Shown one piece after another: positions 153-30,248 of a stretch of DNA of 37,894 nucleotides. This stretch comes from Candidatus Zixiibacteriota bacterium (GTDB lineage: Bacteria; Zixibacteria; MSB-5A5; GN15; PGXB01). Location of the stretch: contig JBFMEF010000128.1 of the NCBI GenBank assembly GCA_040753495.1, forward strand, positions 1-37,894. Direction: 5' to 3'. The notes beneath the pieces were generated by a model. The model was not told the DNA's origin. It saw nothing but the letters and a program-made list of their open reading frames with translations, and searched no databases. Numbering within the stretch: the first letter of the stretch is position 1; every line of letters starts with the position of its first letter. The translations under genes were made by a program, and so were the position numbers.

Positions 153-1085
153 GTGCCGGTAAATTCCGAAGTAGCAGAAAGTAAGCAAATGGCGCGGGAA
201 ATGAAAAGCCGGGCTTCCGGACGCCGTATAATTCTCTGGACAGTCTATCTGCTCTCTTTTGCCGTTCTCGTTGTTCTCTTCATCGAGGGGTACTCCTACT
301 ATTCCACTCCCTATGCGGAACGTCCCCGTCATGAAGATTACCGGATATTCAAGCCGGCCGGAAGCAGAGGATTGACCTACGGAATAATCGGCTCGGCGAT
401 GATGCTCCTGATGCTGGTCTATTCGCTTCAGAAGCGGCTTAGCCTCTTTGGGAAAAACCGAACCCTGCGTCCCTTTCTCGATTTTCATATCTACATGGGG
501 GTAGTAGGACCGCTTTTTATTGTTCTGCATACTTCTTTCAAGGTTCAAGGGCTGGTGGCGGTCAGTTTCTGGTCGATGGTGGCGGTGGCGCTCAGCGGCT
601 ATTTCGGGCGATATCTCTACCGTCAGATTCCCCGCAATATACAGGATAATGAACTCAGCCTGAGCGAAATGGAAGAGAGTCTTGAAGCGCAAACCCGGTT
701 GCTGAAGGAGCGATTTGGCATCGAGGAAGAGAAGCTGAAATTCCTCTCCTCCCTGTTCGAGCAGGAGCTGGAACCTCGGGGGAAAGGGACCGTCATGTCG
801 GTGCTGCGACTTCTCTTTGACGATATCCGTCGGCCACTGATAAAGAGCCGCATCCGGCGTCGGCTGACGGAAACTCTCAATCTTGGAGGTCGCAGTTTTG
901 AGGAGCTGTATAGTCAGCTTTTCAAGCGGGCGCTCTTGCACCGCAAAATCGCCGCTCTCTCAAATGTGCAAAGAGTCTTTCATTACTGGCATGTAATACA
1001 CAAGCCGTTCGCCATTATTATGTATATTATTATGTTCATCCATATCGGAGTGGCGGTTTGGACCGGATATGGCTGGGTCAGGTGA
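153..1085 (+). CDS. Membrane cytochrome b-like protein, first gene of multihaem operon
   Basis: 310 residues from a GTG start preceded by AAAGGAAGG. Five hydrophobic segments are visible, at about residues 27-48, 75-92, 111-127, 134-152 and 285-305. A long charged helical insert (about 160-270) separates the fourth and fifth. His112 and His126 lie in one helix and His283 and His297 around another. Both pairs are 14 apart, the classical spacing for two bis-histidine b haems in cytochrome b folds. No CxxCH is present. I infer a quinol-oxidising or quinone-reducing inner-membrane subunit that passes electrons to the multihaem cytochromes encoded 6 bases downstream. I cannot name an exact family. 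A non-haem membrane anchor is the alternative. Confidence 0.75.
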   Translation: MPVNSEVAESKQMAREMKSRASGRRIILWTVYLLSFAVLVVLFIEGYSYYSTPYAERPRHEDYRIFKPAGSRGLTYGIIGSAMMLLMLVYSLQKRLSLFGKNRTLRPFLDFHIYMGVVGPLFIVLHTSFKVQGLVAVSFWSMVAVALSGYFGRYLYRQIPRNIQDNELSLSEMEESLEAQTRLLKERFGIEEEKLKFLSSLFEQELEPRGKGTVMSVLRLLFDDIRRPLIKSRIRRRLTETLNLGGRSFEELYSQLFKRALLHRKIAALSNVQRVFHYWHVIHKPFAIIMYIIMFIHIGVAVWTGYGWVR

Positions 1086-1091
1086 GGGACA

Positions 1092-2795
1092 ATGACTGAG
1101 ATCATTTCAAAATTTCCGTTTTTTATCCGGCAAGCAAGCTTGCTCCTCATTGCCGGGATGCTCCTGATTTCCGTTGCCCGGGCGCAGATTTCTCCCGGCG
1201 AACTGCACCGCTCACATTCTTTTCTTGAGGGGGTGGATAACTGCAGCCAGTGCCATGGCAGCTCGACCGAACAGATTCCCGCTAAATGCCTCGCCTGTCA
1301 TACTGCAATTGCCATCAGGCAGGCTGAGCAGAAAGGACTGCACGGTAATCCGGATTATAAAGAATGTCAACTCTGTCATGTGGAGCATCAGGGAAAAGAT
1401 TACGAGCTTATCTATTTCAAAGGCGGGGAGAAAGCCTTTGACCACTCGGAAACCGGCTTCCTGCTGGAAGGGAAACATGCCGCCGCCGATTGCCGGAAAT
1501 GTCATCGCAAAGAATTGCTGCGCGATAAAGAGGCTTTAGAGAAAGACAAGTTTGACCTTGCCAAGACATATCTGGGGCTGAATCGCGCCTGTAACAGTTG
1601 CCACTTTGACGAGCACCGAGGGCAGCTGTTGTCCGATTGCTCAAAATGCCATAATCCATCCGGGTGGAAACCGGCCCGGGGATTCGACCACAGCCAAAGC
1701 GGATATCCTCTGCTTGGAAAGCATGCCGCCGTTCCCTGTGAAAAATGCCATCCGGTCATAACCGATAAGACCGTCACTCATGATAAATCATACACTAAGT
1801 ATGCCGTAATCCCCCATTCCCAGTGCACCGACTGCCATCAGGATGTCCACAAAGGACGGCTCGGGCCGGTCTGCCGGAATTGCCATACCCCCGACGGCTG
1901 GCGCACGGTGAGCACCGCCAATTTCGACCACAGCCGAACACGGTATCCGCTGGAGGGGAAACATAAAAATACCGCCTGCGAAAAATGCCACAAGCCGCGT
2001 CAGACAGCAGCGCTTAAGTTTGCCGCCTGTCTTGATTGCCATAATGATTATCATAAAGGGGAATTCGCCCATCGCGCCTCACAGGGAGCCTGTGAAGAAT
2101 GCCACACGGTTGCCGGCTTTACCCCGGCCAATTTTCGCCTGAGCCAGCATGACTCCACCGATTATCCCCTCACCGGAGCGCACCTGGCTGTCCCCTGCGT
2201 TGCCTGCCATATTGTCACCGACCGTGCCACCCAAATCAGAAGCCACCGCTTTCAATTCAATCCTATCCGATGTCTGGTCTGTCATGCCGACCCGCACCAT
2301 GGAGCGGTAGATAGATTTGTCAGTAAAGATGGATGCGAATCCTGCCATATCGAGGAATCCTGGGCAAAGCTCTCCTTTGACCACAGTCTGACAGAATTCG
2401 CTCTGGAGGGAAAACATCAGGCTACCCCTTGCGTTAAATGTCATCATAGGGAGAAGAAAGGGAGTGACGTCCATATCGCCTTCGCCTCCAAGAAAAAACT
2501 CTGCCAGGACTGCCATGATGATATTCACCGGGGGCAGTTTGCCGCCGCTGACTCGCCCGGCAATACCGACTGTACCCGGTGCCATACACCCAGTAACTGG
2601 ACGGCAGAAAAATTCGTGCATAATCGCGATTCGCGATACAAACTGGAAGGGGCGCATCAAAAAGTCCCCTGTACCAAATGTCATATACCGGTAATGAAAG
2701 ATGACAAACTGTTTGTTCAATATAAACCGCTGGATACAACCTGCGTTTCCTGCCATGGCGGAGCGGAATTTGACGAAAGGAAAATGCGACTATGA
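1092..2795 (+). CDS. Exported 20-haem c-type cytochrome
   Basis: 567 residues with an N-terminal signal peptide (hydrophobic stretch about 12-30, ending near A-R-A-Q). I counted 20 CxxCH haem-binding motifs and no other recognisable domain. A unit of the form F-D-H-S-x-T-x-Y/F-x-L-x-G-K-H followed by CxxCH recurs about six times, giving a tandem-repeat haem wire. There is no lipobox, so a periplasmic or secreted soluble protein is likely. The start has GAGGGACA in front of ATG. The gene begins 6 bases after the cytochrome b gene and overlaps the next gene by four bases (ATGA), showing one transcription unit. The inferred role is electron transfer between the inner-membrane cytochrome and the outer membrane. 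Confidence 0.9.
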   Translation: MTEIISKFPFFIRQASLLLIAGMLLISVARAQISPGELHRSHSFLEGVDNCSQCHGSSTEQIPAKCLACHTAIAIRQAEQKGLHGNPDYKECQLCHVEHQGKDYELIYFKGGEKAFDHSETGFLLEGKHAAADCRKCHRKELLRDKEALEKDKFDLAKTYLGLNRACNSCHFDEHRGQLLSDCSKCHNPSGWKPARGFDHSQSGYPLLGKHAAVPCEKCHPVITDKTVTHDKSYTKYAVIPHSQCTDCHQDVHKGRLGPVCRNCHTPDGWRTVSTANFDHSRTRYPLEGKHKNTACEKCHKPRQTAALKFAACLDCHNDYHKGEFAHRASQGACEECHTVAGFTPANFRLSQHDSTDYPLTGAHLAVPCVACHIVTDRATQIRSHRFQFNPIRCLVCHADPHHGAVDRFVSKDGCESCHIEESWAKLSFDHSLTEFALEGKHQATPCVKCHHREKKGSDVHIAFASKKKLCQDCHDDIHRGQFAAADSPGNTDCTRCHTPSNWTAEKFVHNRDSRYKLEGAHQKVPCTKCHIPVMKDDKLFVQYKPLDTTCVSCHGGAEFDERKMRL

Positions 2796-4036
2796 AACTT
2801 GTAATGACGGCTATAGCGCTTTTTTCCGGTCTCTTTGCGGTGGTCGTGGTCAGCCAGACCGGAGACAATCCGCACGGGAAACTTCAATGGGACTGTCAGG
2901 ATTGCCATACCTCGGAATCCTGGAAACTGCTTCGCGAACCGATGGCTTTCAATCATGCTGAAACCGGCTTCCTTCTTGAAGGAGCGCATGGCGCGGTTCC
3001 TTGTATCGCCTGCCATAAAGAGCCGGTCTTCAGTCATGTCGGCGTCAGTTGCGCCGACTGCCATACCGACCATCACCAGGGACAATTGGGGCTTGCCTGC
3101 CAGAACTGCCATATCCCCCGCGACTGGCAGAATCGCCAGGACCTGCTGTCGCTTCATGCCCAACGGGGATTTCCGCTTGTTGGAATTCATGCCGTTGCCG
3201 ATTGTGAATCGTGCCATCGCGGGCACCAGCGTCAGGAGTATGCCGGCACCCCGACCGACTGCCAATCTTGCCACGGCTCACTTTTCGCCGCCACTTCCAA
3301 TCCGAGCCATTCCCGGGCCGGATTTTCGATGAACTGCGAGCCATGTCACAGCGCCGCCGGCGGCACCTGGGATAACGCCACCTATACTCATCCAGCGACT
3401 TTTCCTCTGACCGGCGCTCATGCGCTTCTGGAATGTATGGTCTGCCACAGCGAGACTTTTGCCGGAACTCCAACCGATTGCTATGACTGTCACAGCGATG
3501 ATTATATGGCGGCAGCGAACCCGAATCACGTTCAGGGCAGTTTTCCTCAGACCTGTAAGGTCTGCCATTCGACTGTCGCCTGGCAGCCGGCATCATACGA
3601 CCATAATGCCACCGGATTTCCTCTCACCGGGCGGCATCTGACTGTCGCCTGCGCCGATTGTCACACGTCCGGTTATACCGGCACCCCAACCGCCTGTGTC
3701 GCCTGCCATCAGGATGATTATGACGCCACTACCGACCCCAATCATGCGGCGGCTAATTTCCCGACCGATTGCCAGACCTGCCATTCCACTTCAAACTGGA
3801 GTGGAACCACCTGGGACCATGACGGCTTGTATTTTCCTATCTACTCAGGAGCGCATGCCGGAAAGTGGGATAACTGCGCCGATTGCCATATCAACCCGAC
3901 CAATTTTGCCAGTTTCGAATGTATCAACTGCCATGAACATAATCAGACCGATATGGACAACAAACATTCGCAGGTGAATAACTACCAGTACGCCAGCGCC
4001 GCCTGCTATGGCTGCCATCCCCAGGGGAGACATTGA
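2792..4036 (+). CDS. Exported 16-haem c-type cytochrome
   Basis: 414 residues with a signal peptide (about 1-22). I counted 16 CxxCH motifs. The N-terminal third shares the H-x-x-T-G-F-x-L-x-G-x-H unit with the preceding 20-haem protein. The C-terminal part uses a variant in which G-T-P-T-D-C-x-x-C-H alternates with D-P/A-N-P-N-H segments. The family resemblance at both protein and DNA level suggests the two cytochromes arose by duplication. The start codon overlaps the previous stop (ATGA) and the stop overlaps the start of the barrel gene (TGATG), so translation of the three is probably coupled. It is likely the partner that sits in, or docks at, the neighbouring barrel. Confidence 0.9.
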   Translation: MKLVMTAIALFSGLFAVVVVSQTGDNPHGKLQWDCQDCHTSESWKLLREPMAFNHAETGFLLEGAHGAVPCIACHKEPVFSHVGVSCADCHTDHHQGQLGLACQNCHIPRDWQNRQDLLSLHAQRGFPLVGIHAVADCESCHRGHQRQEYAGTPTDCQSCHGSLFAATSNPSHSRAGFSMNCEPCHSAAGGTWDNATYTHPATFPLTGAHALLECMVCHSETFAGTPTDCYDCHSDDYMAAANPNHVQGSFPQTCKVCHSTVAWQPASYDHNATGFPLTGRHLTVACADCHTSGYTGTPTACVACHQDDYDATTDPNHAAANFPTDCQTCHSTSNWSGTTWDHDGLYFPIYSGAHAGKWDNCADCHINPTNFASFECINCHEHNQTDMDNKHSQVNNYQYASAACYGCHPQGRH

Positions 4037-5646
4037 TGCCTCGCTTCATTCCAGTGCTGATAATTCTTCTATTTGGCGCGGCGCCGCTGCTTTCTGCCTC
4101 TGAGACAAAGTTCCGGGTCAAATATCTCTCGGTGGAGAATCTCTATATCGATGGCGGCCGCGCCGACAGCCTGTCAGTCGGAGACAGACTGAGCGTCAAG
4201 GGTTCTGCCGGCGCGACGGCGGAATTGGAAATCGTCTATGTCGCCGAGCATTCGGCGTCGTGCCGGATTCTATCGTCATCTGGAACAATTTCCGCCGGCG
4301 ACGTCGCCATTCTGGTTTCCCGGGCGGCTCCGCCGCAAACCGCAGCGCCGACCGTATCGACACCGCTGCCGGCTGACACGGTCATTTTGCCAGTCGAGAA
4401 GGAGACTTTTTCGCCACGACCGCCATCACAACTTGCCGGGAGCATCTCGCTTCTATTTTATCACTACGATGACAATGGTCGCGCCGGTCTTGATTTCACC
4501 CAGAGCACCGCCCGCATCAATCTCAAGGCGCGGCGGCTTCTGGGTGAAGAGTTGACTCTTTCCATCCGCTCCCGGGGTCGCTATGATAACCGCCGTCGTT
4601 CTCCGGCGCCGGAAGTCTCCCGTCATTCCTGGGAAAACCGTCTCTGGGAGTTCTCGCTCAGTTATGAAGATAACGCGGCGCCGTTCAATTTTGCAGTAGG
4701 GAGAATTCTCCCCCGACGGGCCGGAAGTATCGGCTATATTGATGGCATTATCATTGAAGGACGGCTCAAAGAGAATTGGCGTATCGGTCTTCTGGGCGGA
4801 GTCTATCCCGACTGGTTATATAATAATCCGCGCGCTTCACTGAATCGAGGCGGCGGTTACATAAATTTCACCCTGGGTGACCATCCGGGGCTACTTATCG
4901 ACCAGACCATTGCCGCTCTCGGGGAGTACCATGGGAGAACGGTTAATCGCAACTATTTGCTGGTGCAGGGGCGAATCAATTTCGTTTCGCGCTTTGGATT
5001 GTATCATACGGCTGAAATCGATATCAATAACGACTGGAGAAAAGAGAAAAGCGGCAAGACCGTCTCTCTTTCGAATCTCTATATCAACAGCTTCTACAAT
5101 CTGAGCGGCTCACTCCGGGTGGGGATGAGTTACGACAACCGTCAGAACTACTGGAGCTACGAAATAAGAACGTTGATTGACAGTCTCTTTGATGACCGCA
5201 TCCGTCAGGGAGCCCGCGCCCGATTTGATTGGAATCTCCTGCGGCGGTTTCGTCTCGGGGGAGCCTTTGGTTTCAATGAACGAAGCGGCGACCGGCGTCC
5301 GACCTACACCTACGCCGCCGATATCAGCCGCCACGGTTTCTGGAGGGGGAAACTTTCCGCGGCGATTCTTGCCTCCGGCTTCAATGGCGCATTTGAGAAA
5401 GGAACAAATTACTCCCTGAGGCTCGGATTCCATACCGCTCGTTTCGGGCAGCATGGAATCACCCTGGGACGATATCTGTACAAACCGTCTTCCGGCGGCG
5501 CCTATCGAACCAATCAATGGGGGGAGTGGCGCAGCGACTTCAGTTTCTCAGGCAACTATTTTGTGGGGGCGGCGTTCCAACTGGATGACGGCGATGACAT
5601 CAGAGGGTGGCGCGCCCAGGGTGAATTGGGATATCGTTTCCGTTAA
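4036..5646 (+). CDS. Outer-membrane beta-barrel protein, candidate porin of the cytochrome conduit
   Basis: 536 residues from ATG at 4036, overlapping the upstream stop as TGATG. A TTG three bases earlier is in frame but less likely. A signal peptide (about 1-20) precedes a small beta-rich domain (about 25-100, with a G-D-R-L-S-V stretch). A Pro/Ala/Thr linker follows (about 100-135), then about 400 residues of alternating polar/aromatic beta strands that are Arg-, Tyr- and Gly-rich and end in G-Y-R-F-R. This is typical of an outer-membrane barrel. Position directly after two multihaem cytochromes suggests an MtrB/PioB-like role holding a cytochrome across the outer membrane. No direct MtrB motif was seen, so the function is inferred from context. 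Confidence 0.75.
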   Translation: MPRFIPVLIILLFGAAPLLSASETKFRVKYLSVENLYIDGGRADSLSVGDRLSVKGSAGATAELEIVYVAEHSASCRILSSSGTISAGDVAILVSRAAPPQTAAPTVSTPLPADTVILPVEKETFSPRPPSQLAGSISLLFYHYDDNGRAGLDFTQSTARINLKARRLLGEELTLSIRSRGRYDNRRRSPAPEVSRHSWENRLWEFSLSYEDNAAPFNFAVGRILPRRAGSIGYIDGIIIEGRLKENWRIGLLGGVYPDWLYNNPRASLNRGGGYINFTLGDHPGLLIDQTIAALGEYHGRTVNRNYLLVQGRINFVSRFGLYHTAEIDINNDWRKEKSGKTVSLSNLYINSFYNLSGSLRVGMSYDNRQNYWSYEIRTLIDSLFDDRIRQGARARFDWNLLRRFRLGGAFGFNERSGDRRPTYTYAADISRHGFWRGKLSAAILASGFNGAFEKGTNYSLRLGFHTARFGQHGITLGRYLYKPSSGGAYRTNQWGEWRSDFSFSGNYFVGAAFQLDDGDDIRGWRAQGELGYRFR

Positions 5647-5661
5647 AGACAGGCAATAGTT

Positions 5662-7011
5662 ATGGAGCAGCTCTATATCTGGCTTTTTGCGCTCGGTCTA
5701 ATATTGGTGGTCTTTGTCCCTTACCTGCTCAAATTCCGCCGCAGTCAGAAAGAAACGGAACATCGCAGGAATGAGGCCAAAGAACTGGGAATAGACCGTC
5801 CACGGGCGCAGTACCCGCAGGTCAACCGCTCTCTGTGCATAGGATGCGGCTCATGTGTGCAGGCCTGCCCGGAAGGAGATGTGCTGGGCGTGGTTTGGGG
5901 AGCGGCCGAGGTCATCAATGGCGAAAGATGTGTCGGTCATGGCTTCTGCGAAATGGTCTGCCCGGTGGGAGCGATTAAGGTTGGCTTGGGGGATATTAAG
6001 AGCCGTCCTGACATTCCGGTGTTGAGTGAAAAGAATGAAACAACCGTTCCGGGATTGTATATTGCCGGTGAGTTGAGCGGTATTTCCTTAATTCGTCACG
6101 CCATATCGCAGGGAAAAATGGTGGTTGATGAAATCGCGCGTCGCCGGGGAAAAGAACCGTGGCAGGATGGATATGATGTAGTCATTGTCGGCGCCGGGCC
6201 GGCCGGATTAAGCGCCGCATTGAGCGCCATCGCTTATGGACTCCGCTATCTGGTTCTTGAGCAGAGTGATGTCGGCGGCACCATCAGCCATTATCCGCGC
6301 CGCAAACTGGTTATGACTCAGCCGGTCGAAATCCCGCTCTACGGTTGGCTCAAGAAAGAAGAGTACTCCAAGGAGTTCCTGCTGGACGCCTGGTACGATA
6401 TCATCAGCCGCTTTCAGGTCAATATCGCGACGGGGCAGAAGGTGGAGCGGATAGAACGACTTGACGACCGCTTCCAGATTAAGACGGCGGCGGAAAGTTT
6501 CCGCGCTGAGGCGGTCGTGCTGGCGATGGGACGTCGCGGCTCTCCCCGGAAACTGGACGTACCCGGTGAAGAATTGCCTAAAGTGATGTATCAGCTGGTC
6601 GATGCCCAATCGTACAGCGACAAGGCTATTCTGGTGGTCGGCGGCGGCGACAGCGCCGTGGAAGCCGCAGTCGGGCTGGCACGGCAGAAAGGGAACCAGG
6701 TGACTATTTCTTACCGCAAGAAGAGCTTCTTCCGCATCAAGAAAAAGAACGAGGAAAAGTTAAAAGAATTGATTAAAGAGAAAAAAATCAAAGTGCTCTT
6801 CGAATCGCAAGTAAAGGAAATTCGACCCGACTCAGTAGTCCTGACAACCCCCCAGGGGGAGACTGAAATCCCTAACGAATTTGTCATTATACAGGCCGGG
6901 GGGATTCCTCCGTTTGAGATGCTTCGTCAGTGCGGCATTGCCTTCGGGGGAGACGCTATCAGTTTTGTTGAAGCCGACCGGCGCTTCTATCAGCCGGCCG
7001 CCACAGCTTAA
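5662..7011 (+). CDS. Membrane-anchored ferredoxin/FAD NAD(P)-linked oxidoreductase
   Basis: 449 residues. An N-terminal membrane helix (about 4-24) is followed by two 4Fe-4S motifs: Cys59-Cys62-Cys65-Cys69, then Cys90-His93-Cys96-Cys100, where His replaces the usual second Cys. A thioredoxin-reductase-like flavoprotein domain follows, with FAD motif G-A-G-P-A-G at 177-182 and a second nucleotide-binding motif G-G-G-D-S-A at 327-332. The redox CxxC of true thioredoxin reductases is absent. The segment V-P-G-L-Y-I-A-G-E, which normally closes the FAD domain at the C-terminus, sits before it at about 129-137. It is the last gene of the cytochrome operon (15-base gap) and probably links NAD(P)H or ferredoxin to that chain at the cytoplasmic face. 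Confidence 0.85.
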   Translation: MEQLYIWLFALGLILVVFVPYLLKFRRSQKETEHRRNEAKELGIDRPRAQYPQVNRSLCIGCGSCVQACPEGDVLGVVWGAAEVINGERCVGHGFCEMVCPVGAIKVGLGDIKSRPDIPVLSEKNETTVPGLYIAGELSGISLIRHAISQGKMVVDEIARRRGKEPWQDGYDVVIVGAGPAGLSAALSAIAYGLRYLVLEQSDVGGTISHYPRRKLVMTQPVEIPLYGWLKKEEYSKEFLLDAWYDIISRFQVNIATGQKVERIERLDDRFQIKTAAESFRAEAVVLAMGRRGSPRKLDVPGEELPKVMYQLVDAQSYSDKAILVVGGGDSAVEAAVGLARQKGNQVTISYRKKSFFRIKKKNEEKLKELIKEKKIKVLFESQVKEIRPDSVVLTTPQGETEIPNEFVIIQAGGIPPFEMLRQCGIAFGGDAISFVEADRRFYQPAATA

Positions 7012-7022
7012 GTTCTTTCCCC

Positions 7023-7316
7023 TTAATATCCCTCATCAATACCGGTGTGATTTTTAATAATATTGTCCACTTGTTCCAGGGTGAAAGTGGTGAGCAATGT
7101 AACTTTGGCTTCATGACGGAAGGCGTGCGGCACCACCGCCCGAGCCTCTTCCTTGCTGTCGGCATCAACTATGATCCAGGCTTTGTGCTCGCCGTCTTCA
7201 CACCCCCATTCGGCATTCGCCAGGAAGTGAGACCCGGTGGCGAGGAAAACCTTGATAACTTTGGCGCATGCCACAATCTCTTCCTCGTGGGGAACCTCAA
7301 TCAGGTATTTCGGCAT
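7023..7316 (-). CDS. Small conserved-looking hypothetical protein
   Basis: 97 residues, starting MPKYLIEVPHE, with AAAAAGGAGCTGAAGAACT directly before the ATG on the minus strand, a good ribosome binding site. It is soluble with no signal peptide. It has a compact alpha/beta look, with a hydrophobic strand at the start, a central W-G-C-E-D-G-E-H-K-A-W-I-I segment and a helical end. The pattern resembles small ferredoxin-like dimeric domains with a short metabolite- or stress-related role, but I cannot assign a family or function. It converges on the cytochrome operon with only 11 bases between stop codons. Confidence 0.75.
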   Translation of the reverse strand: MPKYLIEVPHEEEIVACAKVIKVFLATGSHFLANAEWGCEDGEHKAWIIVDADSKEEARAVVPHAFRHEAKVTLLTTFTLEQVDNIIKNHTGIDEGY

Positions 7317-7569: not shown

Positions 7570-8868
7570 ATGTCGCACAGGTCATATTTAAGGTCCACCC
7601 CGATATCGCGGCGCACCTTCTTGACTATCAGCGCAGGTGCGGTCGCCGCACTTTCCGGAAATGACCTTTTTGGAGGAGAAATGAGCAAAGGAAGCACTAT
7701 CCTGATACTGGGGGGAGGTTTTGGCGGCATTGCCACCGCCTGGCATCTGCGGGGGGCTCTCTCATCAGAACATCAAGTAGTGGTTGTGAGTAAGACCCGT
7801 TCCTTCCAGGTTGGGGCGACCAAGACCTGGGTGATGCTGGGTCACGCCGCCGAGGAGAAAGTCAGTCGCTCTCTTGACGCCCTCGGCTCCCACGGGATTC
7901 GTCTTCTCCATACCGAAGTCGATAGAATCGACCTTTCCAATATGCAGGCGATAACCCGCGACAGTCGCCTCACTGCCGACTATATGGTGATTGCGCTGGG
8001 GGCGGAATTGGATATGAGCCTTATTCCGGGACTTTCCGGTGCCGCCGAGACTTTTTATACCCGCGAGGGGGCAATACGGCTAAGGGGAATTCTCAAGGAG
8101 TTCAAAGGAGGGCGAATTGCAATTATCATTCCTCGTCTTCCCTTTCAATGCCCCCCCGGTCCATATGAAACCGCTATGTTAATTGACTCTTATCTGGAAG
8201 GGCGCAATTTGAGGGGCAAATCGAGCATCGATATCTACACCGTCGAAAAAGCGCCGATGGGCACGGCCGGTCCGGAGATTGGGAAGTTCATCATTGGTCT
8301 TCTGGAGGAGCGCGGTATCGGTTTTCATCCGCAAAGCCAGATTCAGGAAGTTGACGGTTCGGGAAAGACGGTTCTGCTTGCCGACGGGACAAAAATCCCA
8401 TACGACCTGCTCATCGCCATCCCGCCCCATTCGGCGCCGCGGGCAGTACGGGAAAGCGGACTGGCGGCGCCATCCGGTTGGATTCCGGCCGACCCTATGA
8501 CTTTGGAATTGGCTAACTCACCCCGACCCGGGAAGATATATGCCATTGGGGATGTGGCATCAGTCCCCCTTCCCGGGCGTTTTGCCCCCGATGTTCCTTT
8601 GGTTTTGCCCAAAGCCGGCATATTTGCGGAGCGACAGGGCAGAGTGGTGGCCTCACGGATTGCCGCTGAGATTCTGGGGAACGGAAAGGGGGATAGTTTT
8701 GACGGAAAAGGATTCTGCTATATCGAGATTGGGGATGAGAAAGCGCTCCGGGGAGAAGGCTCCTTTTATGAGATGCCCCATCCCGTTATGAACCCCCGCA
8801 CTCCCGACCATATCCAGTTCGCCGAAAAGAAAGCCTGGGTCGAATCCTGGATGGCAACCTATTTGTAA
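7570..8868 (+). CDS. Sulfide:quinone-reductase-like FAD oxidoreductase with Tat-type signal
   Basis: 432 residues from ATG 7570. Residues 13-18 (S-R-R-T-F-L) followed by an Ala/Gly-rich hydrophobic stretch form a twin-arginine signal. The FAD-binding motif G-G-G-F-G-G is at 48-53. A G-D-V-A motif and a pattern of strands match the pyridine nucleotide-disulfide oxidoreductase superfamily, closest in feel to sulfide:quinone oxidoreductases and flavocytochrome c flavoproteins. A Cys in P-F-Q-C-P-P-G-P-Y-E is in the right area for a catalytic Cys. An in-frame ATG at 7681 (residue 38) has a strong GGAGGAG site, while ATG 7570 has none obvious, so a 395-residue cytoplasmic form is possible. The substrate is not proven. 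Confidence 0.75.
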   Translation: MSHRSYLRSTPISRRTFLTISAGAVAALSGNDLFGGEMSKGSTILILGGGFGGIATAWHLRGALSSEHQVVVVSKTRSFQVGATKTWVMLGHAAEEKVSRSLDALGSHGIRLLHTEVDRIDLSNMQAITRDSRLTADYMVIALGAELDMSLIPGLSGAAETFYTREGAIRLRGILKEFKGGRIAIIIPRLPFQCPPGPYETAMLIDSYLEGRNLRGKSSIDIYTVEKAPMGTAGPEIGKFIIGLLEERGIGFHPQSQIQEVDGSGKTVLLADGTKIPYDLLIAIPPHSAPRAVRESGLAAPSGWIPADPMTLELANSPRPGKIYAIGDVASVPLPGRFAPDVPLVLPKAGIFAERQGRVVASRIAAEILGNGKGDSFDGKGFCYIEIGDEKALRGEGSFYEMPHPVMNPRTPDHIQFAEKKAWVESWMATYL

Positions 8869-9091: not shown

Positions 9092-9532
9092 ATGCGCCAT
9101 AATCGAGCACAAACCGCCTTCTTCTTCTGCCTGGCGGGTTTGATTTTTTTAATTGGCTCGGTCGCCCTGACCGCCGAGCCTGGCAGAACTCATTTTGTCG
9201 ACCTTGATGGGGATGGATTTGACGACAATGCGACCGACAGCGACAATGACGGTATTCCCGAATTCAGCAAGCAGCCATCATCCGGTTCTCAGGTATCTGA
9301 CAACGATTCCGATTTTAAATCTCTGGCCGATTTTTCCCTGCCCGGCTTGACCGCCACAGAAGAAACTTCTACCTCCGCAAAATTCAAAGGACTGCAATTT
9401 TCCGCCCGCTCTCTGATGCGCAACCGATGCAGTCTTGACTCTGATGCTGCTTTCGGTCCCGGAAACGGCATCGGGATGAGCAGTATGTCGGGAGGAATGG
9501 TCTGTGCCGGAGGAGTATGTCAACCTCGTTAA
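9092..9532 (+). CDS. Small secreted protein with calcium-loop motif and Gly/Met/Cys tail
   Basis: 146 residues with a signal peptide (about 8-29). Residues about 36-56 carry D-L-D-G-D-G and D-S-D-N-D-G-I-P stretches, resembling the Asp-rich calcium loops of thrombospondin type 3 or EF-hand-like repeats. The rest is Ser-rich and of low complexity. It ends in a Gly/Met/Ser-rich segment with a C-A-G-G-V-C pair near the C-terminus. The next gene starts inside its last 16 bases, implying coupled translation and a shared role with the outer-membrane barrel. The family is not recognised beyond the calcium-loop motif. It could be an envelope or surface-associated metal-binding protein. Confidence 0.75.
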   Translation: MRHNRAQTAFFFCLAGLIFLIGSVALTAEPGRTHFVDLDGDGFDDNATDSDNDGIPEFSKQPSSGSQVSDNDSDFKSLADFSLPGLTATEETSTSAKFKGLQFSARSLMRNRCSLDSDAAFGPGNGIGMSSMSGGMVCAGGVCQPR

Positions 9533-10662
9533 GAAGATTTCGAAAATATCTCTTTACGGTTCTGCTGACCGTATCGTCGGTTATTTTCGCCCTTGATGCC
9601 TCGGCCGACTTGAAAGTAGATTTCAGCAGCAGCGGCGGTTACACCGAAAATCTCCTGAGCGATTCCAGCGCCATTAAGGACTCCTATTCTACTGTTCGCG
9701 CTTCGATTAACTATTATCCCTTTTCCAAACTGGAATTGAACATAAATAACGGTTATACATATTATGGCAAAACCTCCGACCTGAGCAATTTTGTAGGCGG
9801 GGTCGGACTGCGCTTTATTCCGACAGCGGCCAATTCCCGCTTCTCACTTCTGGTCAACGGCGCCTTTTCATCCCAGGCTTACCGCGATTCTTATTCTCAA
9901 TTCAATACCGACAACTATGATTTCGGTCTCTCCTTAGGGTACCGTCTTTTTTCCCGCCTCCAACTCCGCAGTGGAGTCTCTTACAATTCGCTGATATATA
10001 CCAATTATGTGGGAGCCGACAAGAAGACTTTCAAGTTATTCGCCGGCTTCAATGCCACCCTTCCGGGAAATTTCAGCCTGGACGTTGAGTCCGGTTACGC
10101 GACCATGGGATATAAACGGATTCGGGAGTCTATCCGGTTCATATATATCTATAATCCCTTCACGCCGATAGATTCTTCCTGGACCGATGACCGCCTCAAA
10201 TCATTTTATATTTCACCTCGACTTTCACGCCAGCTCGGCGCCAAAACGGGGGTGAGCGTGATGTACACCTACCGCGATTTCTCTAATTTTGACGGCCGCG
10301 TTGTCTGGGGAATAGCCACTGGTTTTATCTCTCCCTGGGCGTCCATTTATGACGGGCAGGCTGTTTCGGCCACAGTCAAAACCTACCTTCTGCCGCATTT
10401 CATCACCAGTTTCGGCGCCGGATACTGGGATAAGAACTTCTTCACCACCGCCGAGAATGGAACCTATATAAGGGGTCGCGCCAAGCCGCGACGCGATTTT
10501 CAATCCCGCTTCTATTTCAGTCTGCAAAGACCAATTGTCTTTCGTTCCGGACTGATTCTGGAGCCGAATTTGCAGTTGGAGTACGGCGACAACCGCTCGA
10601 CGCACGGTCTCTACAATTACAATCTAACCGCCATTACTTTCGGATTAAATATCAGACTTTAG
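9517..10662 (+). CDS. Outer-membrane beta-barrel protein, function unknown
   Basis: 381 residues with a signal peptide (hydrophobic about 12-30, ending A-S-A-D). The mature part is almost entirely alternating beta strands rich in Tyr, Phe, Ser and Asn, with many S-x-G-Y-x pairs, and ends in F-G-L-N-I-R-L, typical of an outer-membrane barrel. The ATG lies within the end of the preceding gene, with GGAGG only three bases upstream, an unusually tight spacing that suggests translational coupling. It sits between two secreted proteins and may anchor or export them. No specific porin family is recognised. Confidence 0.75.
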   Translation: MSTSLRRFRKYLFTVLLTVSSVIFALDASADLKVDFSSSGGYTENLLSDSSAIKDSYSTVRASINYYPFSKLELNINNGYTYYGKTSDLSNFVGGVGLRFIPTAANSRFSLLVNGAFSSQAYRDSYSQFNTDNYDFGLSLGYRLFSRLQLRSGVSYNSLIYTNYVGADKKTFKLFAGFNATLPGNFSLDVESGYATMGYKRIRESIRFIYIYNPFTPIDSSWTDDRLKSFYISPRLSRQLGAKTGVSVMYTYRDFSNFDGRVVWGIATGFISPWASIYDGQAVSATVKTYLLPHFITSFGAGYWDKNFFTTAENGTYIRGRAKPRRDFQSRFYFSLQRPIVFRSGLILEPNLQLEYGDNRSTHGLYNYNLTAITFGLNIRL

Positions 10663-21981: not shown

Positions 21982-22257
21982 ATGGACCCTGAAACTATCA
22001 TCTTCGCATCCCTGACACTGGGCGCGCTAATCTGGAACGGAATCGCCGGTATGATGATATATAATTATCTAAAGAAGCGCGGCGAGAAAGTGAATTTCAT
22101 GTGGTTGAAAGCGTATGGCCCAAGGTATGCCACCAGATACAAAGCACTAACCCGTCAGGAGACAGGGAGTATCGGCGTTTTATATTATCATTATCTCTTT
22201 TCAATCAATCTGGCGCTTGTCTTTGGATTGATTACTATTTTTGTTCATCGCCTGTAA
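21982..22257 (+). CDS. Small membrane protein, tandem paralogue 2
   Basis: 91 residues, the same length and two-helix layout as its upstream paralogue, starting 11 bases after that gene's stop. GGAGGT lies further back than usual and overlaps the end of the previous gene, suggesting translational coupling. The paralogues have diverged most in the membrane helices and least in the K-R-G-E-K-V and L-T-R-x-E-T-G segments, which are probably the functional cytoplasmic part. Its 3' end overlaps the convergent ACR3 gene by 23 bases. Confidence 0.8.
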
Positions 22258-23299
22258 AGTATTTCTTGCGAAAATAGAGCGCCACGTTAACCAATCCGAT
22301 GAGCACAGGGACTTCCACCAGCGGTCCCACCACGGCGGCAAACGCCACGCCCGATTTTATTCCGAAAACCGCCACCGCCACCGCTATGGCCAGTTCGAAA
22401 TTGTTGGAAGCAGCGGTGAAACTGAGCGTGGTGGCAATGCGGTATCTCGCCCTGGCTTTGCGACTGAGGTAGAAACTGACAAAGAACATCACCACAAAAT
22501 AGATTAGAAGCGGGACGGCAATGAGAAGAACATCAAGCGGAATCGTGACAATAAGCTCTCCTTTAAGCGAAAACATCACGAATATGGTAAAAAGGAGCGC
22601 TATCAATGTAAGGGGACTGATGCGGGGAACAAACTCCCGATGATACCATTCTTTCCCTTCTGCCCTGACCAGAAATAGACGGGTCAGCATGCCGGCAATG
22701 AACGGAATGCCGAGATAGATAAAGACCGATTCGGCGATTTCGCTTATGGTGATATCGACCGCGACCCCTTGCAGACCGAACAAAGGGGGAAGTTTGGTGA
22801 CGAATACCCAGGCAAAGATAGAATAAAAAAGGACCTGAAAGACAGAATTGAAAGCGACCAGACCGGCAGCGTACTCCGGGTCCCCCTCGGCCAGGTCGTT
22901 CCAGACTATCACCATGGCGATACATCGAGCCAGACCGATAAGAATCAAGCCCACCATATATTCGGGCTGGTTATGAAGAAAAGCGATAGCGAGAAGAAAC
23001 ATCAGTGTCGGTCCAATAACCCAGTTTTGAAGAAGGCTCAAGCTGAGAACTTTGAAATCGCGAAAGACCCGCCCCATTTCCTCATAGCGGACTTTCGCCA
23101 GCGGGGGATACATCATCAGAATCAAGCCGATTGCAATCGGAATATTGGTGGTTCCGACCGAGAATCTGTCCCAGAATCCGGCGATTTCCGGGTAGAAGTT
23201 TCCGATGCCCACTCCGAGACCCATCGCCAGGAAAATCCAGACAGTCAGATACCGGTCGAGAAAGGCAAGACGCTTGGGGCTCGATACAGCAGGAGACAT
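22235..23299 (-). CDS. acr3: ACR3-family arsenite efflux permease
   Basis: 354 residues from ATG 23299, which is nine bases after GGAG. A TTG at 23305 is too close to that site. About ten membrane helices are visible. The family motif around the conserved arsenite-binding Cys is present as [18 protein letters not shown]3 proteins extrude As(III) and Sb(III) using the proton gradient. The gene begins three bases after the arsC stop, so arsenate is reduced by ArsC and the product exported here. It is the last gene of the arsenic block. Confidence 0.93.
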
Positions 23300-23301
23300 C
23301 T

Positions 23302-23748
<447 letters not shown>

Positions 23749-23796
23749 CGCGTTTTCTCTTGGTCACTGTTACACCACCCAAAGATGCAAAGGTGC

Positions 23797-23814
23797 CCCA
23801 CCGCTTGCGGTGGG
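23797..23814. repeat. REP-like GC palindrome
   Basis: CCCACCGC TT GCGGTGGG is a perfect 8-base inverted repeat around two bases (effective loop CTTG), in an otherwise plain intergenic stretch. The extended form, GGTGCCCCACCGCTTGCGGTGGGT, looks like the short palindromic repeats that occur in many copies in some bacterial genomes. I see only this copy in the window, so repeat status needs a genome search. Confidence 0.45.
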
Positions 23815-23867
23815 TAGTCAATAGTAAGAATCCCGTCTTCAAAACCCATCCAAAATGTCACTTCTCT

Positions 23868-23882
23868 TCAAAATGATTTTGA
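23868..23882. promoter_or_regulatory. Palindromic candidate operator before arsC
   Basis: TCAAAAT G ATTTTGA is a perfect 7-1-7 inverted repeat, between the arsG-like stop (23911) and the arsC start (23748). Its size and symmetry suit a dimeric repressor such as ArsR or Fur-type proteins, but no matching consensus is established here. Confidence 0.35.
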
Positions 23883-23910
23883 TGATATCTCATTTAGCAC
23901 CGACACGGTA

Positions 23911-24603
23911 TCAAATCATCATCCCCAATATATATATCAATGAATAATAAATCCCGACCGCGATAAAGATGATACCGGTTATCCGCCGCATCCATTTTTC
24001 AATCAGGGTCATTTTGTTGAAGAGTTTTCCCAGCGAGCCGGCGCTGAAGGCTATTACGAAGGCAAATATCAGAACGGGAAGGCCTGTCGCGATGCCATAG
24101 ATTGAGGGAAGCAGCACCGATGAATTATTCTTCACCGACAGCGGGATAAGACTTCCAAAGAAAAGCGCCGCCGATACGGGACAAAGCGAAAGCGCAAAGA
24201 GAAAACCGAGCGCGGCCGCGCCCCAAACTCCCCCTCTCTCGGCCATTTTCTGAGATTTTTCCCCGGCGCCGAGGCTCGCCAGGCGCAACGGGATTATATC
24301 CAGCACTATCAGCCCGACCAGAAACAGCAGCGGCCCGAGGATTTTATTCATGTACTTCTGAAGGAAATTTGAAATGCCCGGTATCGAAAGAATTCCGGCG
24401 ATGACTACAACTGCCAGAAGCAGGTATGCCAGCATCCGTCCGACCGTGTAGGCCGTTCCGTTGATGAGGACCTGGCGGCTGCTACCGACTTTCCGCCCAA
24501 GGAAGGAAATCGCCGCAATATTGGTCGCCAGCGGGCAGGGAGAAATGGAGGTCAAGACGCCGAGCCAGAAAGCGGAGCCAAAGGCGAGCCAAAAAGAATC
24601 CAT
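23911..24603 (-). CDS. arsG: ArsG-like permease (DsbD/CcdA-type membrane protein)
   Basis: 230 residues with six membrane helices and the DsbD/CcdA-type Cys-Pro motifs S-I-S-P-C-P-L near the N-terminus and L-S-L-C-P-V-S mid-protein. The ATG overlaps the previous stop as TAATG, so it is translationally coupled to the arsF-like gene. Proteins of this type beside ArsF-like proteins are described as ArsG, a permease for trivalent aromatic arsenicals. The name comes from family and context as I remember them, not from a search. A thiol-electron carrier of the CcdA kind is the alternative. Confidence 0.75.
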   Translation of the reverse strand: MDSFWLAFGSAFWLGVLTSISPCPLATNIAAISFLGRKVGSSRQVLINGTAYTVGRMLAYLLLAVVVIAGILSIPGISNFLQKYMNKILGPLLFLVGLIVLDIIPLRLASLGAGEKSQKMAERGGVWGAAALGFLFALSLCPVSAALFFGSLIPLSVKNNSSVLLPSIYGIATGLPVLIFAFVIAFSAGSLGKLFNKMTLIEKWMRRITGIIFIAVGIYYSLIYILGMMI

Positions 24604-25073
24604 TATTCTTCTTTCAGGAAATCGTTTACTTCATCACGGATATAGATGCTGAAAGAGTTTTTGCTGTTCAGATATTCCCAGACCTTCTCCAGATTCTTCC
24701 AGCGCGCCTGTTTGCCGTCATGCATATCGACCAGCACCACCGACCTGGTATAGAGATTGTAATCTTCAAGGAAGTGCTGGTTACTGTCGAGGTCGGTGTT
24801 GACCACCTGCCAGAGAATTCTCCCGTCCGATAACTCCTTCTGAAAGAGGGAGTCGAGCGACTCTTTGGTGTACTTTTCTATTTTGATGCAGGAGGCGCAG
24901 CGGCGGTTGCCGTGAAAATAGAATGCCAGAAGTTGATGCGACGAATCCGCCGGCACAATGGAGGAATCGACCAAAACTGACGCTGTTTCGGTCGCTTTTT
25001 CCTGCGCCAGAGTCGTTGCCGCTCCCACCAGAAAAATGAGAGTCAGGATGAAAATTAGCAGGTTGCGTTTCAT
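24603..25073 (-). CDS. arsF: ArsF-like exported thioredoxin-fold protein
   Basis: 156 residues from ATG 25073 (AAGGGAAATTGT upstream). A longer form from 25103 would lack a binding site and delay the signal peptide. Signal peptide about 1-23. Cys59 and Cys62 (R-R-C-A-S-C-I-K) form a CxxC in a thioredoxin-like context, followed by an alpha/beta domain with V-V-L-V-D. It is reported under names such as nitrophenyl compound nitroreductase subunit ArsF. In the known arsEFG system, ArsE and ArsF reduce nitroaromatic arsenicals and ArsG exports the product. It sits between a small thioredoxin gene and the arsG-like gene. Confidence 0.75.
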   Translation of the reverse strand: MKRNLLIFILTLIFLVGAATTLAQEKATETASVLVDSSIVPADSSHQLLAFYFHGNRRCASCIKIEKYTKESLDSLFQKELSDGRILWQVVNTDLDSNQHFLEDYNLYTRSVVLVDMHDGKQARWKNLEKVWEYLNSKNSFSIYIRDEVNDFLKEE

Positions 25074-25095
25074 ACAATTTCCCTTTCCCAGTATC

Positions 25096-25329
25096 TTATG
25101 CAATCAGTTTTTTGATTTCATCTATCGAGGGGACCTTCCCGGAGAGTTTGACTGTTCCATCAACAGCCAGAGCGGGGGTCATCATGACGCCGAATTTCAT
25201 TATTTCCTGGATGTCGGTTACCTTCTCCAGCGAGTATTCCAGCCCCAGTTCCTTTGCCGCCTTCTCGGTCTCCTCAGCCAGTTTCTTGCATTTGGGGCAT
25301 CCGGTGCCAAGTATCTGGATTTTTTTCAT
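25096..25329 (-). CDS. Small thioredoxin-fold protein (redox-active disulfide type)
   Basis: 77 residues, a minimal glutaredoxin/thioredoxin fold with Cys11-Pro-Lys-Cys14 in G-T-G-C-P-K-C, and the cis-Pro strand M-M-T-P-A-L-A-V-D. It is cytoplasmic, with no signal peptide. It is the third gene of the arsenic block and 22 bases upstream of the arsF-like start. It could be the ArsE partner of ArsF, or the thiol donor for arsenate or organoarsenical reduction. The assignment to ArsE is inference from size and position. Confidence 0.85.
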   Translation of the reverse strand: MKKIQILGTGCPKCKKLAEETEKAAKELGLEYSLEKVTDIQEIMKFGVMMTPALAVDGTVKLSGKVPSIDEIKKLIA

Positions 25330-25345
25330 CGTTTATCCTTTACAT

Positions 25346-26641
25346 TTATCCGAAAAGCCTGCCATAAATTATGCCGCTTATTGTCGCCATAATTATTACC
25401 AGCGAGACATAAACCACAGTCTTTTTGGTGCCTATGATAGAGCGAATCACCAGCATACTGGGAAGCGACAATGCCGGGCCGGCTAAAAGAAGCGCCAAAG
25501 CGGGTCCTTTTCCCATGCCGCTTCCCAGTAGCCCCTGAAGTATCGGCACCTCGGTCAGGGTGGCAAAATACATGAAAGCGCCAACCACTGAAGCAAATAG
25601 ATTCGCCCAAAGAGAATTCCCACCGACCAGCGAGACTATCCAGGACGATGGAATCAATCCTTCATTTCCGGGACGTCCCAGAAGCGCCCCGGCAATGAGA
25701 ACGCCGAACAGGAGAAGGGGAAGAATCATTTTGGCGTAACCCCAGGTCGAATCAAACCAGTCGCGAGCCTCCCCTCTTGATGTCGATGTGATAAGAGATA
25801 TTCCTATCACGGCGACACCGAAAGGAATCATCGGTTCATTTCGGAAGATTATCGCGAGGATGGCGGTCGGAACACCGACCAGAGCGGTCTTCCACCATTC
25901 CATCTTAAACCAGATGACAAGGACCATTCCCAGACCAATGGCGAATAGAGCCGTAATTACCCACTTGACCGAATAGACCAATTGATAGAATCCAGTAGCC
26001 CCTTCGCCCCAGTTGGCGAAGACCAGAATTCCGACCAGCAGTCCGAAGTAGACGGCATTCTGCCAGAGGGGGCGGCTTCTGGTATCTTGCGGCATTGCCA
26101 TCTGGCCACTTGCCTTCTCCAACTCTTCCTTGCGGAACAGAAAGTGCATGATAAGTCCTATTATGACGCTGAATAGAACCGCCCCGACGGCCCGCGCTAT
26201 CCCCATTTCCAGACCGAGAATGCGGGCTGTTAAGATAATTGCCAGAACATTAATAGCGGGACCGGAATAAAGAAACGCGGTCGCGGGACCGATACCGGCG
26301 CCCATTTTATATATTCCGGCGAAAAGAGGAAGAACCGTGCAGGAGCAGACCGCCAGAATGGTTCCGGAGACTGAGGCAACACCGTAGGAGAGGAATTTGT
26401 TAGCCCGGGCGCCGAGATATTTCATAACGGAAGCCTGACTGATGAAAACCGAAATCGCCCCGGCGATGAAAAATGCCGGTATCAGGCAGAGAAGAACATG
26501 CTCGCGGGCGTACCATTTGACCAGATAGAGCGCTTCTTTGATAGCGTTATCGAACCGGAGGTTTCCCACCGGGAGATAGAACGCCGCCAAAAATATGGCG
26601 ACAATCAACGCCAGCGGTTTCCATTCGTTTTTCCATTCCAT
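25346..26641 (-). CDS. arsP: ArsP/DUF318-type permease
   Basis: 431 residues, with about ten membrane helices in two homologous halves. The signature C-S-C-T-V-L-P-L-F-A-G is followed by a helix with S-G-P-A-I-N. The second half repeats it in degenerate form (T-L-T-E-V-P-I-L-Q-G, A-G-P-A-L-S-L-P). A charged loop (about 170-190) separates the halves. ArsP proteins export trivalent organoarsenicals such as methylarsenite and roxarsone derivatives. The broader DUF318 family includes permeases of other soft metals. The gene starts 14 bases after arsR, so it is under ArsR control. The specific substrate is not provable from sequence. Confidence 0.8.
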   Translation of the reverse strand: MEWKNEWKPLALIVAIFLAAFYLPVGNLRFDNAIKEALYLVKWYAREHVLLCLIPAFFIAGAISVFISQASVMKYLGARANKFLSYGVASVSGTILAVCSCTVLPLFAGIYKMGAGIGPATAFLYSGPAINVLAIILTARILGLEMGIARAVGAVLFSVIIGLIMHFLFRKEELEKASGQMAMPQDTRSRPLWQNAVYFGLLVGILVFANWGEGATGFYQLVYSVKWVITALFAIGLGMVLVIWFKMEWWKTALVGVPTAILAIIFRNEPMIPFGVAVIGISLITSTSRGEARDWFDSTWGYAKMILPLLLFGVLIAGALLGRPGNEGLIPSSWIVSLVGGNSLWANLFASVVGAFMYFATLTEVPILQGLLGSGMGKGPALALLLAGPALSLPSMLVIRSIIGTKKTVVYVSLVIIMATISGIIYGRLFG

Positions 26642-26655
26642 AGATAAGTACCGCG

Positions 26656-26982
26656 CTAACGAATCTTTATGACCTGAAGATGTTCATCGGCGGTGGTGCG
26701 AAGCACCTGCTCCACGCAGCCGAAAAAGTTCAGTATGCAGGGGACCTTGAGATAATAGAAAACCTGCGCGCCGCGACGCTCATCGCGGACAATACCGGCA
26801 TTTCGCAATACCGCCAGATGCTTGGAGATGGTGGAAACGTCATCGCCGACCATCTCCGTCAATTCATTCACCGACCGCTCTTTTTTCGAGAGCTGGTCAA
26901 CTATAAAAAGCCGGGTGGGGTGAGACATTGCCTTGATTATCGCCGCCCGCGCCTCATATTTTGCCAGGGTTTTGGTATCCAT
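26656..26982 (-). CDS. arsR: ArsR/SmtB-family metalloregulator
   Basis: 108 residues after AAGGAATATAAA. Winged helix-turn-helix with recognition helix V-S-T-I-S-K-H-L-A-V-L-R and wing R-R-G-A-Q-V-F-Y-Y. It lacks the CVC motif that binds arsenite in the E. coli R773 ArsR. Its only cysteines are Cys82 and Cys89 (V-P-C-I-L-N-F-F-G-C) at the end of the fold, so metalloid binding probably uses a C-terminal site. It is the first gene of the arsenic block and should repress it from the operator at 26996-27013 or nearby. Confidence 0.93.
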   Translation of the reverse strand: MDTKTLAKYEARAAIIKAMSHPTRLFIVDQLSKKERSVNELTEMVGDDVSTISKHLAVLRNAGIVRDERRGAQVFYYLKVPCILNFFGCVEQVLRTTADEHLQVIKIR

Positions 26983-26995
26983 TTTATATTCCTTG

Positions 26996-27013
26996 TTTGG
27001 TCATTTTGCCAAA
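26996..27013. promoter_or_regulatory. Candidate ArsR operator
   Basis: Inverted repeat TTTGG (26996-27000) and CCAAA (27009-27013) with an 8-base spacer, lying between the predicted transcription start (about 27015) and the arsR ribosome binding site. An additional direct TTGGCAA repeat overlaps it on the minus strand. The position would block transcription initiation or clearance. Confidence 0.45.
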
Positions 27014-27021
27014 TTGCCAAT

Positions 27022-27050
27022 ATTATAAGTGGTGACCGGAAAATTGTCAA
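27022..27050 (-). promoter_or_regulatory. Consensus sigma70 promoter of the arsenic operon
   Basis: On the minus strand, TTGACA (27045-27050) and TATAAT (27022-27027) are separated by exactly 17 bases, a perfect consensus. The start site would be near 27015, giving a leader of about 33 bases to the arsR ATG. Such strength implies the operon is normally held off by repression. Confidence 0.9.
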
Positions 27051-27171
27051 GAAGCAATTTAGAATAATTCTTAAAACCAAGCACGAAAGAAGCTTGCCAA
27101 GAATCTGCCTCTGACATATGGGAGTTGAAAAAAGAGCGAAGGGCGGAGTCGCGGATATGAAGTGGAGACGA

Positions 27172-30100: not shown

Positions 30101-30240
30101 ACCAGAACCGGAGTGGTGTCGGGGAAGGCGTCGAACGGAAGACTCCAGAGAGCCACCAGCCCTATGAGGCAGAGCAGCCCGGCCAAGGCAAGGACGGCAT
30201 AGCGGTACCGAAGAACGAATTCGACAATATATGAAAGCAT
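27172..30240 (-). CDS. czcA: CzcA-type heavy-metal RND efflux pump
   Basis: 1022 residues from ATG 30240. A TTG at 30252 overlaps the upstream stop and adds four residues. The domain plan is typical RND: one N-terminal helix, porter domain, helices 2-7, second porter, helices 8-12. Helix 4 carries Asp393, Asp399 and Glu406 in D-F-G-L-A-V-D-N-A-V-I-Q-V-E-N. This is the proton-relay pattern of the divalent-cation (CzcA/ZneA) group, not the CusA copper/silver one. It exports Zn, Co, Cd or Ni from the periplasm when coupled to an adaptor and outer-membrane factor. It lies 8 bases after the adaptor gene. Confidence 0.9.
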   Translation of the reverse strand: MLSYIVEFVLRYRYAVLALAGLLCLIGLVALWSLPFDAFPDTTPVLVQVNVAAPGWAPEDIERLVTFPIEQALTGLSGMEEVRSVTKYGLCQVTTIFQDGVDLYLARQQVSERLIAVDLPDGVSAPQLSPVSTGLGEIFHYIVVSKSDDITAARTAQDWNIKPQLLSVPGVAEINSWGGFEKQYLVIIEPSRLAQYSLTVDAVVATIQEEMRNVPGGQVSRGGEMTLIRGIGVAEDIADIENVVLASRKGIPITVKNVAEVAVGHEIRLGATTLNGKGEAVLGLGFMITGENPANITRQLAQRLEESRTTLPAGIDVIPVYERTELVKHVLSTVEHNLTYGALLVIAVLFIFLGNLRAGLIVASAIPLSMLFAFDMMSRAGIAGSLMSLGAIDFGLAVDNAVIQVENSVRRLSQSGESSNRLQVIRDAILEVRKPTLFGELIIITVYLPILTLQGIEGKLFRPMALTVVFVLSGSLLLSFTVLPALIGVLLKKTRQTEEPFFLRWLKQLYSPLLDMALRHSKKILLGAAGFIIVGLLIFTRLGAEFVPRLGEGTIVINLVRLAGISLEESVAFNSRIERELLDKFPDEIKHIWTRTGTAELSTDPMGLELSDMFMALQPRENWKKAKTQEELVAAIDKELSDLPGQNRIFTQPIEMRVNEMIAGIRSDIGIKLFGDSLLILEEKAEEIAALVETISGSADVSIEQLTGQPQLRLEVDRQRLARFGLTADEVLTAIEAIGGITVGDLFEGQKRFEIVVRTDTSRFQGVEDIKKVVLRSGAGSLVGLDRVTEVSLDEGPGTITREWSKRRIVVQCNVRGRDIGSFVSELRERLREEITLPQGYFVRLGGQFENLERARTRLMIVVPIALLLIFGLLYWTYKSARDAALIFSGVPLAALGGVLSLWLRGMPFSISAGVGFIALSGIAVLNGLVLVSTIKRFRSDGEEILSAIRQSALTRLRPVLMTALVAAFGFIPMAISTGVGAEVQRPLATVVIGGILTSTALTLLVLPALYLTFGKKTEVET

Positions 30241-30248
30241 AGGGCGTC

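Follow-up and report, generated by a model that had tools for sequence, protein, structure and literature searches.

The five genes at positions 153-7011 of the DNA analysed here, a stretch of 37,894 nucleotides from Candidatus Zixiibacteriota (hereafter the window), probably encode a complete trans-envelope electron conduit, which resembles the predicted porin-cytochrome conduit PCC3 and is provided with a cytoplasmic electron-input module of its own. The gene set, the haem motifs, the conservation, the module rule of one cytochrome, the two-part organisation and the topology of the cytochrome b were computed, and cofactor loading, electron donor, localisation, direction and final acceptor are predicted.

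Genomic organisation of the operon

The five genes, like all features inside them given below, lie on the plus strand, and a check of the open reading frames showed that neighbours are no more than 15 bases apart or overlap slightly (in order a 6 bp gap, a 4-bp ATGA overlap, a TGATG overlap and a 15 bp gap), as stated in a preliminary description of this DNA. They encode a cytochrome b of the inner membrane (153-1085, 310 aa, five TM helices), a 20-haem cytochrome c (1092-2795, 567 aa, Sec signal peptide), a 16-haem cytochrome c (2792-4036, 414 aa, signal peptide), an outer-membrane beta-barrel protein (4036-5646, 536 aa, with a possible alternative TTG start at 4033) and a membrane-anchored ferredoxin/FAD/NAD(P) oxidoreductase, the flavoenzyme (5662-7011, 449 aa). 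The two cytochromes contain exactly 20 and 16 CXXCH motifs, in agreement with the 36 haems counted earlier. The gene after the flavoenzyme (7023-7316) is on the opposite strand. The window starts at a contig end, and another contig of the same genome (C35) overlaps its first 221 bases with 218/221 identical, ends in the same gene start as the window's first gene and gives the likely upstream genes; because of this overlap and the shared gene start, position 153 is very likely the start of the operon.

Further downstream, a Tat-signal flavoprotein (7570-8868) is related to flavocytochrome c sulfide dehydrogenase and type III SQR (Pfam FCSD_central above its cut-off, the NCBIfam SQR model below its own). 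A conserved role for this neighbour was rejected, as among the fetched operon loci only that of the same-genus genome G078 has it. The window also holds a signal-peptide protein that is probably an outer-membrane barrel (9517-10662; weak GSU2204 family match, 15.7 bits against a cut-off of 350) and, on the minus strand and recognised by eye only, a region resembling arsenic and metal resistance loci (22235-31742), with permeases, an ArsC-like protein and an RND pump with its adaptor.

Conservation across phyla

A single scan of 84,980 species genomes returned at least 570 relatives of the inner-membrane protein. We read 92 loci, namely the best 80 of these at least 570 relatives with duplicates removed and loci of the host phylum added, and 49 of them were uncut by contig ends. 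Within this sample all five genes were present in 44 of the 49 uncut loci, assigned by record titles (MAGs can be misbinned) to Zixibacteria, Calditrichota, Ignavibacteriota, Acidobacteriota, KSB1 and Bacteroidota, plus further MAGs. Inspection added a 45th full set in Latescibacterota (L106), and loci of Neomarinimicrobiota (L143) and Margulisbacteria (L096) carry all five genes near contig ends. The set occurs in at least seven phyla and in three gene orders, with the flavoenzyme last, first or second. The same genes turn up, usually side by side, in phyla that are far apart, so their grouping is not due to chance. The preliminary description had proposed a search for the same gene order elsewhere and would have been refuted by homologous operons that lack the barrel or the cytochrome b in most genomes; the 44 complete loci keep both. 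In a tree of the membrane protein the Zixibacteria fall into separate clades alongside other phyla, and this split suggests transfer between phyla.

One locus labelled Ignavibacterium sp. (L064, DYGG01000004.1) belongs to a same-genus relative of the window genome, and its label is probably wrong since the phylum set of the window genome is full of Zixibacteria. A full set with 23 and 40 haems lies on plasmid pEMTOL02 of Emticicia oligotrophica DSM 17448 (L144, 8947-20745), behind a cytochrome c biogenesis gene (CcsA). Plasmid searches otherwise gave only distant two-haem-b proteins, mostly beside 2Fe-2S and short cytochrome genes, and no relative of the 20-haem cytochrome outside Emticicia. 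In loci L045-L048 (genomes G032, G034, G073 and G036), a protein distantly related to the cytochrome b (24-30% identity) is encoded in a multihaem operon of different make-up, together with a large flavoprotein and proteins of 3, 6 and 10 haems.

Of 133 genomes of the host phylum, 27 have the cytochrome b and 29 the flavoenzyme, with both in 27 (Fisher p 3e-26, not corrected for relatedness), and the barrel was found in the same 29 genomes as the flavoenzyme. In the two genomes with flavoenzyme only, it lies together with the barrel near contig ends, and these loci look contig-broken. Five loci (in G017, G025, G026 and G027, and a second one in G028) have a related barrel but neither cytochrome b nor flavoenzyme; all but that of G026, at which no modular cytochrome was found, hold only this barrel and a relative of the 16-haem protein (the modular cytochrome, described below). 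Furthermore, locus L111 splits the set, with modular cytochrome and barrel apart from cytochrome b, 20-haem cytochrome and flavoenzyme. The operon has, therefore, two separable halves, in which the modular cytochrome goes with the barrel and the 20-haem cytochrome with the inner membrane, and this pairing supports the order of electron flow that we propose.

A predicted entry module at the inner membrane

The inner-membrane protein matched no family above cut-off, the nearest being Pfam Ferric_reduct (E 0.049, under cut-off), and a PDB profile search with it gave no match. Alignment and hydropathy yield five hydrophobic segments, with the N terminus inside by the positive-inside rule and a basic loop of about 120 residues (153-276) on the cytoplasmic side. 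The motifs HX13H on TM3 and WX3HX13H on TM5 are each present in 91 of 93 relatives, and SGXXG on TM4 in 92 of 93; the TM3 motif is preceded by W in 80 of the 93, and by F in the window protein and likewise in some relatives. Judging from these motifs, the protein probably binds two b haems, through H112/H283 on the cytoplasmic side and H126/H297 on the periplasmic side.

The product of the fifth gene had been described as a membrane-anchored iron-sulfur flavoprotein, which is borne out by Pfam matches to Pyr_redox_3 (7e-52) and Fer4 (6e-12) and by an N-terminal TM helix followed by a K/R-rich stretch, an arrangement that places the remainder in the cytoplasm. Its ferredoxin domain (5815-5991) has two cluster motifs, CxxCxxCxxxCP and CxxHxxCxxxCP; the His that replaces Cys in the second is kept in 60 of 63 relatives, and a His-ligated (Cys3His) FeS cluster is probable at this site. 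The core of the enzyme is closest to YpdA and thioredoxin reductase (TrxR), and an NAD(P)-type glycine motif is conserved. With hhalign, the main domain (residues 170-423) matches TrxR 16-260 (E 3.5e-25), and residues 120-138 match TrxR 271-289 in a single-pair comparison (E 1.4e-5, probability 80). The latter segment (6019-6075) corresponds to the FAD-binding C-terminal motif of the fold, here ahead of the Rossmann domain, and a circularly permuted thioredoxin-reductase fold, a reading that rests on this short match, is probable. No CXXC was found in the flavoprotein part, so the flavoenzyme is not a disulfide reductase; identity with thioredoxin reductase was ruled out on the missing redox CXXC and the permuted domain order.

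We hypothesise that NAD(P)H would reduce the FAD of the anchored flavoenzyme in the cytoplasm. This enzyme, docked on the large basic loop of the cytochrome b, would hand electrons via both of its FeS clusters to the haem b on the cytoplasmic side, and the second haem b would relay them over the inner membrane to the 20-haem cytochrome. We favour outward flow from NAD(P)H, as the flavoenzyme faces the cytoplasm and always accompanies the cytochrome b. The window genome has other multihaem genes, which fit an organism active in extracellular electron exchange and do not fix the direction. Against the conduit reading, a path from NAD(P)H to the outside skips complex I with its proton pumping and would run down the membrane potential, which makes it odd as a main respiratory route.

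Alternatively, the cytochrome b could exchange electrons with quinones, the flavoenzyme being an accessory. He et al. propose such an exchange for the same membrane-protein motif (PMC5566968), expression of one PCC3 membrane protein rose in Sideroxydans CL21 when the organism was able to oxidise iron (PMC12442390), and the alternative keeps its standing, since PCC3 as described has four genes and no flavoenzyme. However, in the host phylum the cytochrome b always comes with the flavoenzyme (27 of 27 genomes), which stays adjacent across the three gene orders, and we consider a quinone link unlikely. A distinctly more doubtful possibility is a small-scale reductase of ferric iron or other oxidants, similar to an NADPH oxidase, that would serve iron assimilation, redox balance or oxidant removal rather than respiration. 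The two-haem-b layout is like that of the ferric reductase transmembrane domain (compare the weak Ferric_reduct match), direct coupling to NAD(P)H conserves no energy and one carrier, Emticicia oligotrophica, is an aerobe, but 36 haems, or as many as 73 in a single protein, would be costly for minor housekeeping, and a wire of such length suggests solid acceptors or partners at a distance.

Putative haem wires and an outer-membrane barrel

The first cytochrome has 20 haems in 36 of the 44 complete operons, at 28.4 residues per haem in the window (25.9 in the 16-haem protein). Its distant PDB profile relatives are MtrA and the dodecahaem GSU1996, and its score with the DmsE/MtrA model, 51 bits, is below the cut-off of 192.2. 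The AlphaFold2 model (pLDDT 51) was set aside and gives no wire geometry. The nearly fixed length would suit a fixed distance, the periplasm, and by analogy this protein is likely to be a periplasmic wire.

The 16-haem cytochrome consists of a seven-haem N-terminal cap (CXXCH spacings 36, 16, 16, 35, 19 and 25) and three three-haem modules, two of 72 aa (3434-3649, spacings 33, 15 and 25; 3650-3865, spacings 32, 15 and 25) and a terminal one (3875-4036; 35, 15 and 28). The haem number of the modular cytochrome follows 7+3n, with modules of about 72 residues and spacings of about 33, 15 and 25; n is 3 in the window and reaches 22 among relatives, giving 73 haems. By a tolerant criterion the cap is present in 59 of 67 modular cytochromes, and 36 of the 44 operons have a haem count equal to 1 modulo 3 (p 5e-11 if all three remainders are equally likely, a significance inflated by shared ancestry). 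A simple reading of the modules as tandem PpcA was not adopted, as their CXXCH spacings follow another order than in PpcA. Loci L159, L160, L162 and L163 have two genes, a modular cytochrome of 27-48 haems and a barrel, with no cytochrome b or flavoenzyme nearby, and six others (L127, L134, L069, L084, L087 and L092) have an extra 10-haem cytochrome gene between modular cytochrome and barrel. Compared with known systems, the modular cytochrome is likely an outer-membrane or extracellular wire.

The preliminary description would have been undone by a failed barrel prediction; the AlphaFold2 model of the fourth protein, built with 17 sequences, has 22 strands at residues 132-534 and a mean pLDDT of 80.2. 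The model also contains the extra domain noted earlier, an N-terminal beta domain at residues 25-95 (4108-4320, conserved in A3), tied to the barrel by a Pro-rich linker that is of low confidence or disordered. Foldseek matched general outer-membrane porins and ushers (prob 1.00, weak TM-scores), MtrB was not among the top 50 matches listed, and Pfam and NCBIfam gave no MtrB family match. Moreover, nearly all barrel relatives end in an aromatic or hydrophobic residue, as outer-membrane proteins should.

We propose that the 16-haem cytochrome, in or on the 22-strand barrel, would take electrons through the outer membrane, and that the number of three-haem modules (3 here, up to 22 elsewhere) would set the reach of the wire. 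The cytochromes might instead act as a capacitor, periplasmic or at the surface, that buffers electrons, with the barrel in another role, and the literature does also explain large haem counts as charge storage. Such a store, however, needs no barrel and no modular chain of up to 73 haems, and the modular cytochrome is constantly accompanied by a barrel, also where a locus has just two genes; we regard a store as very improbable.

As for the conduit that we favour, the preliminary description had arranged the operon as a route from NAD(P)H or quinol to the outer membrane; its parts proved to be conserved, while its function, localisation and direction we infer. More tentatively, and with somewhat less than even confidence, the operon could stand for a cross-phylum class of conduits in which the haem wire is fed directly by NAD(P)H instead of quinol, via a permuted FeS-flavoenzyme and a two-haem-b relay, with three-haem duplication setting the length: an NADPH-oxidase-like design, wired outward and widespread. 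If so, predicted long-wire conduits would not be limited to a few iron-oxidising Proteobacteria and would be present in many poorly studied phyla, and the cytoplasmic entry point would tie electron transfer at the surface to NAD(P)H. It follows from the 7+3n rule, as a testable prediction, that the length of the wire should be tuned in whole three-haem modules, and the cultured carrier E. oligotrophica DSM 17448 opens the predicted PCC3-type mechanism to experiment.

Comparison with known systems

PCC3 was predicted in 2017 in Proteobacteria by He et al. (PMC5566968) and named again in Gallionellaceae (PMC10734462) and Sideroxydans CL21 (PMC12442390); it remains a predicted conduit, and these papers describe it as a four-gene cluster of Alpha-, Beta- and Gammaproteobacteria only. 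The operon shares with it a barrel and a five-helix membrane protein of about 300 aa, and the haem counts of its two cytochromes fit those of the approximately 20-haem multihaem cytochrome (MHC; 21, 24 or 27 haems in Gallionellaceae) and the large variable MHC of PCC3, the former predicted to be periplasmic and the latter extracellular. The PCC3 membrane protein has two WX3HX13H motifs and SGXXG, which the motif set of the window cytochrome b matches, and He et al. read such motifs in the PCC3 and PCC4 inner-membrane proteins as two b haems (PMC5566968). The 28.4 and 25.9 residues per haem fall inside the PCC3 range of 22-39, and the variable MHC has up to 85 haems in PCC3 and 16-73 in the window family. 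On the other hand, the variable MHC is the larger one in PCC3 and the smaller one in the window (16 vs 20), and the Gallionellaceae extracellular haem numbers (10-18, 26, 28, 29, 33, 35) do not follow 7+3n. PCC3 porins are mostly, not all, large, with up to 42 predicted strands, whereas the window barrel has 22.

The preliminary description had not recognised the combination as a characterised system; four of the five parts do match the predicted PCC3 (PMC5566968), and the flavoenzyme is absent from it, no ferredoxin/FAD gene being described there. Because this FeS-flavoenzyme is a fixed fifth gene, we treat the operon as a PCC3-like variant and not as a member, the likeness being one of motifs and described features.

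MtrCAB, MtoAB and PioAB share the idea of a barrel with a multihaem conduit, and MtrA is a distant PDB relative of the 20-haem protein, but their subunits are decahaem; membership of MtrCAB was rejected on the DmsE/MtrA score (51 bits against 192.2) and on the barrel having no MtrB family match. The Geobacter Pcc (OmbB-OmaB-OmcB), compared by description only, likewise joins a porin with periplasmic and outer cytochromes. Excerpts of two reports record a Geobacter-like pcc in Ignavibacteriales and a C. abyssi homologue, and describe no two-haem-b protein with an FeS-flavoenzyme for this type (PMC4245776, PMC6137239). The GSU1996 nanowire (PMC10138318) also has head-to-tail three-haem domains in one chain, but it has four domains with 12 haems, fewer than the 16-73 of the modular protein, and is described as periplasmic and without a barrel. 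The flavoenzyme has the FAD and NAD(P) domains of thioredoxin reductase and YpdA, from which it differs by its permutation, the added ferredoxin domain and membrane anchor and the missing redox CXXC. The two-haem-b transmembrane relay recalls NOX and ferric reductases, with separate polypeptides here in place of the NOX fusion. We found no description of the exact five-gene set in the open-licence literature, and what is new with respect to the PCC3 papers is the flavoenzyme as a fixed fifth partner, the 7+3n module rule and the range of phyla.
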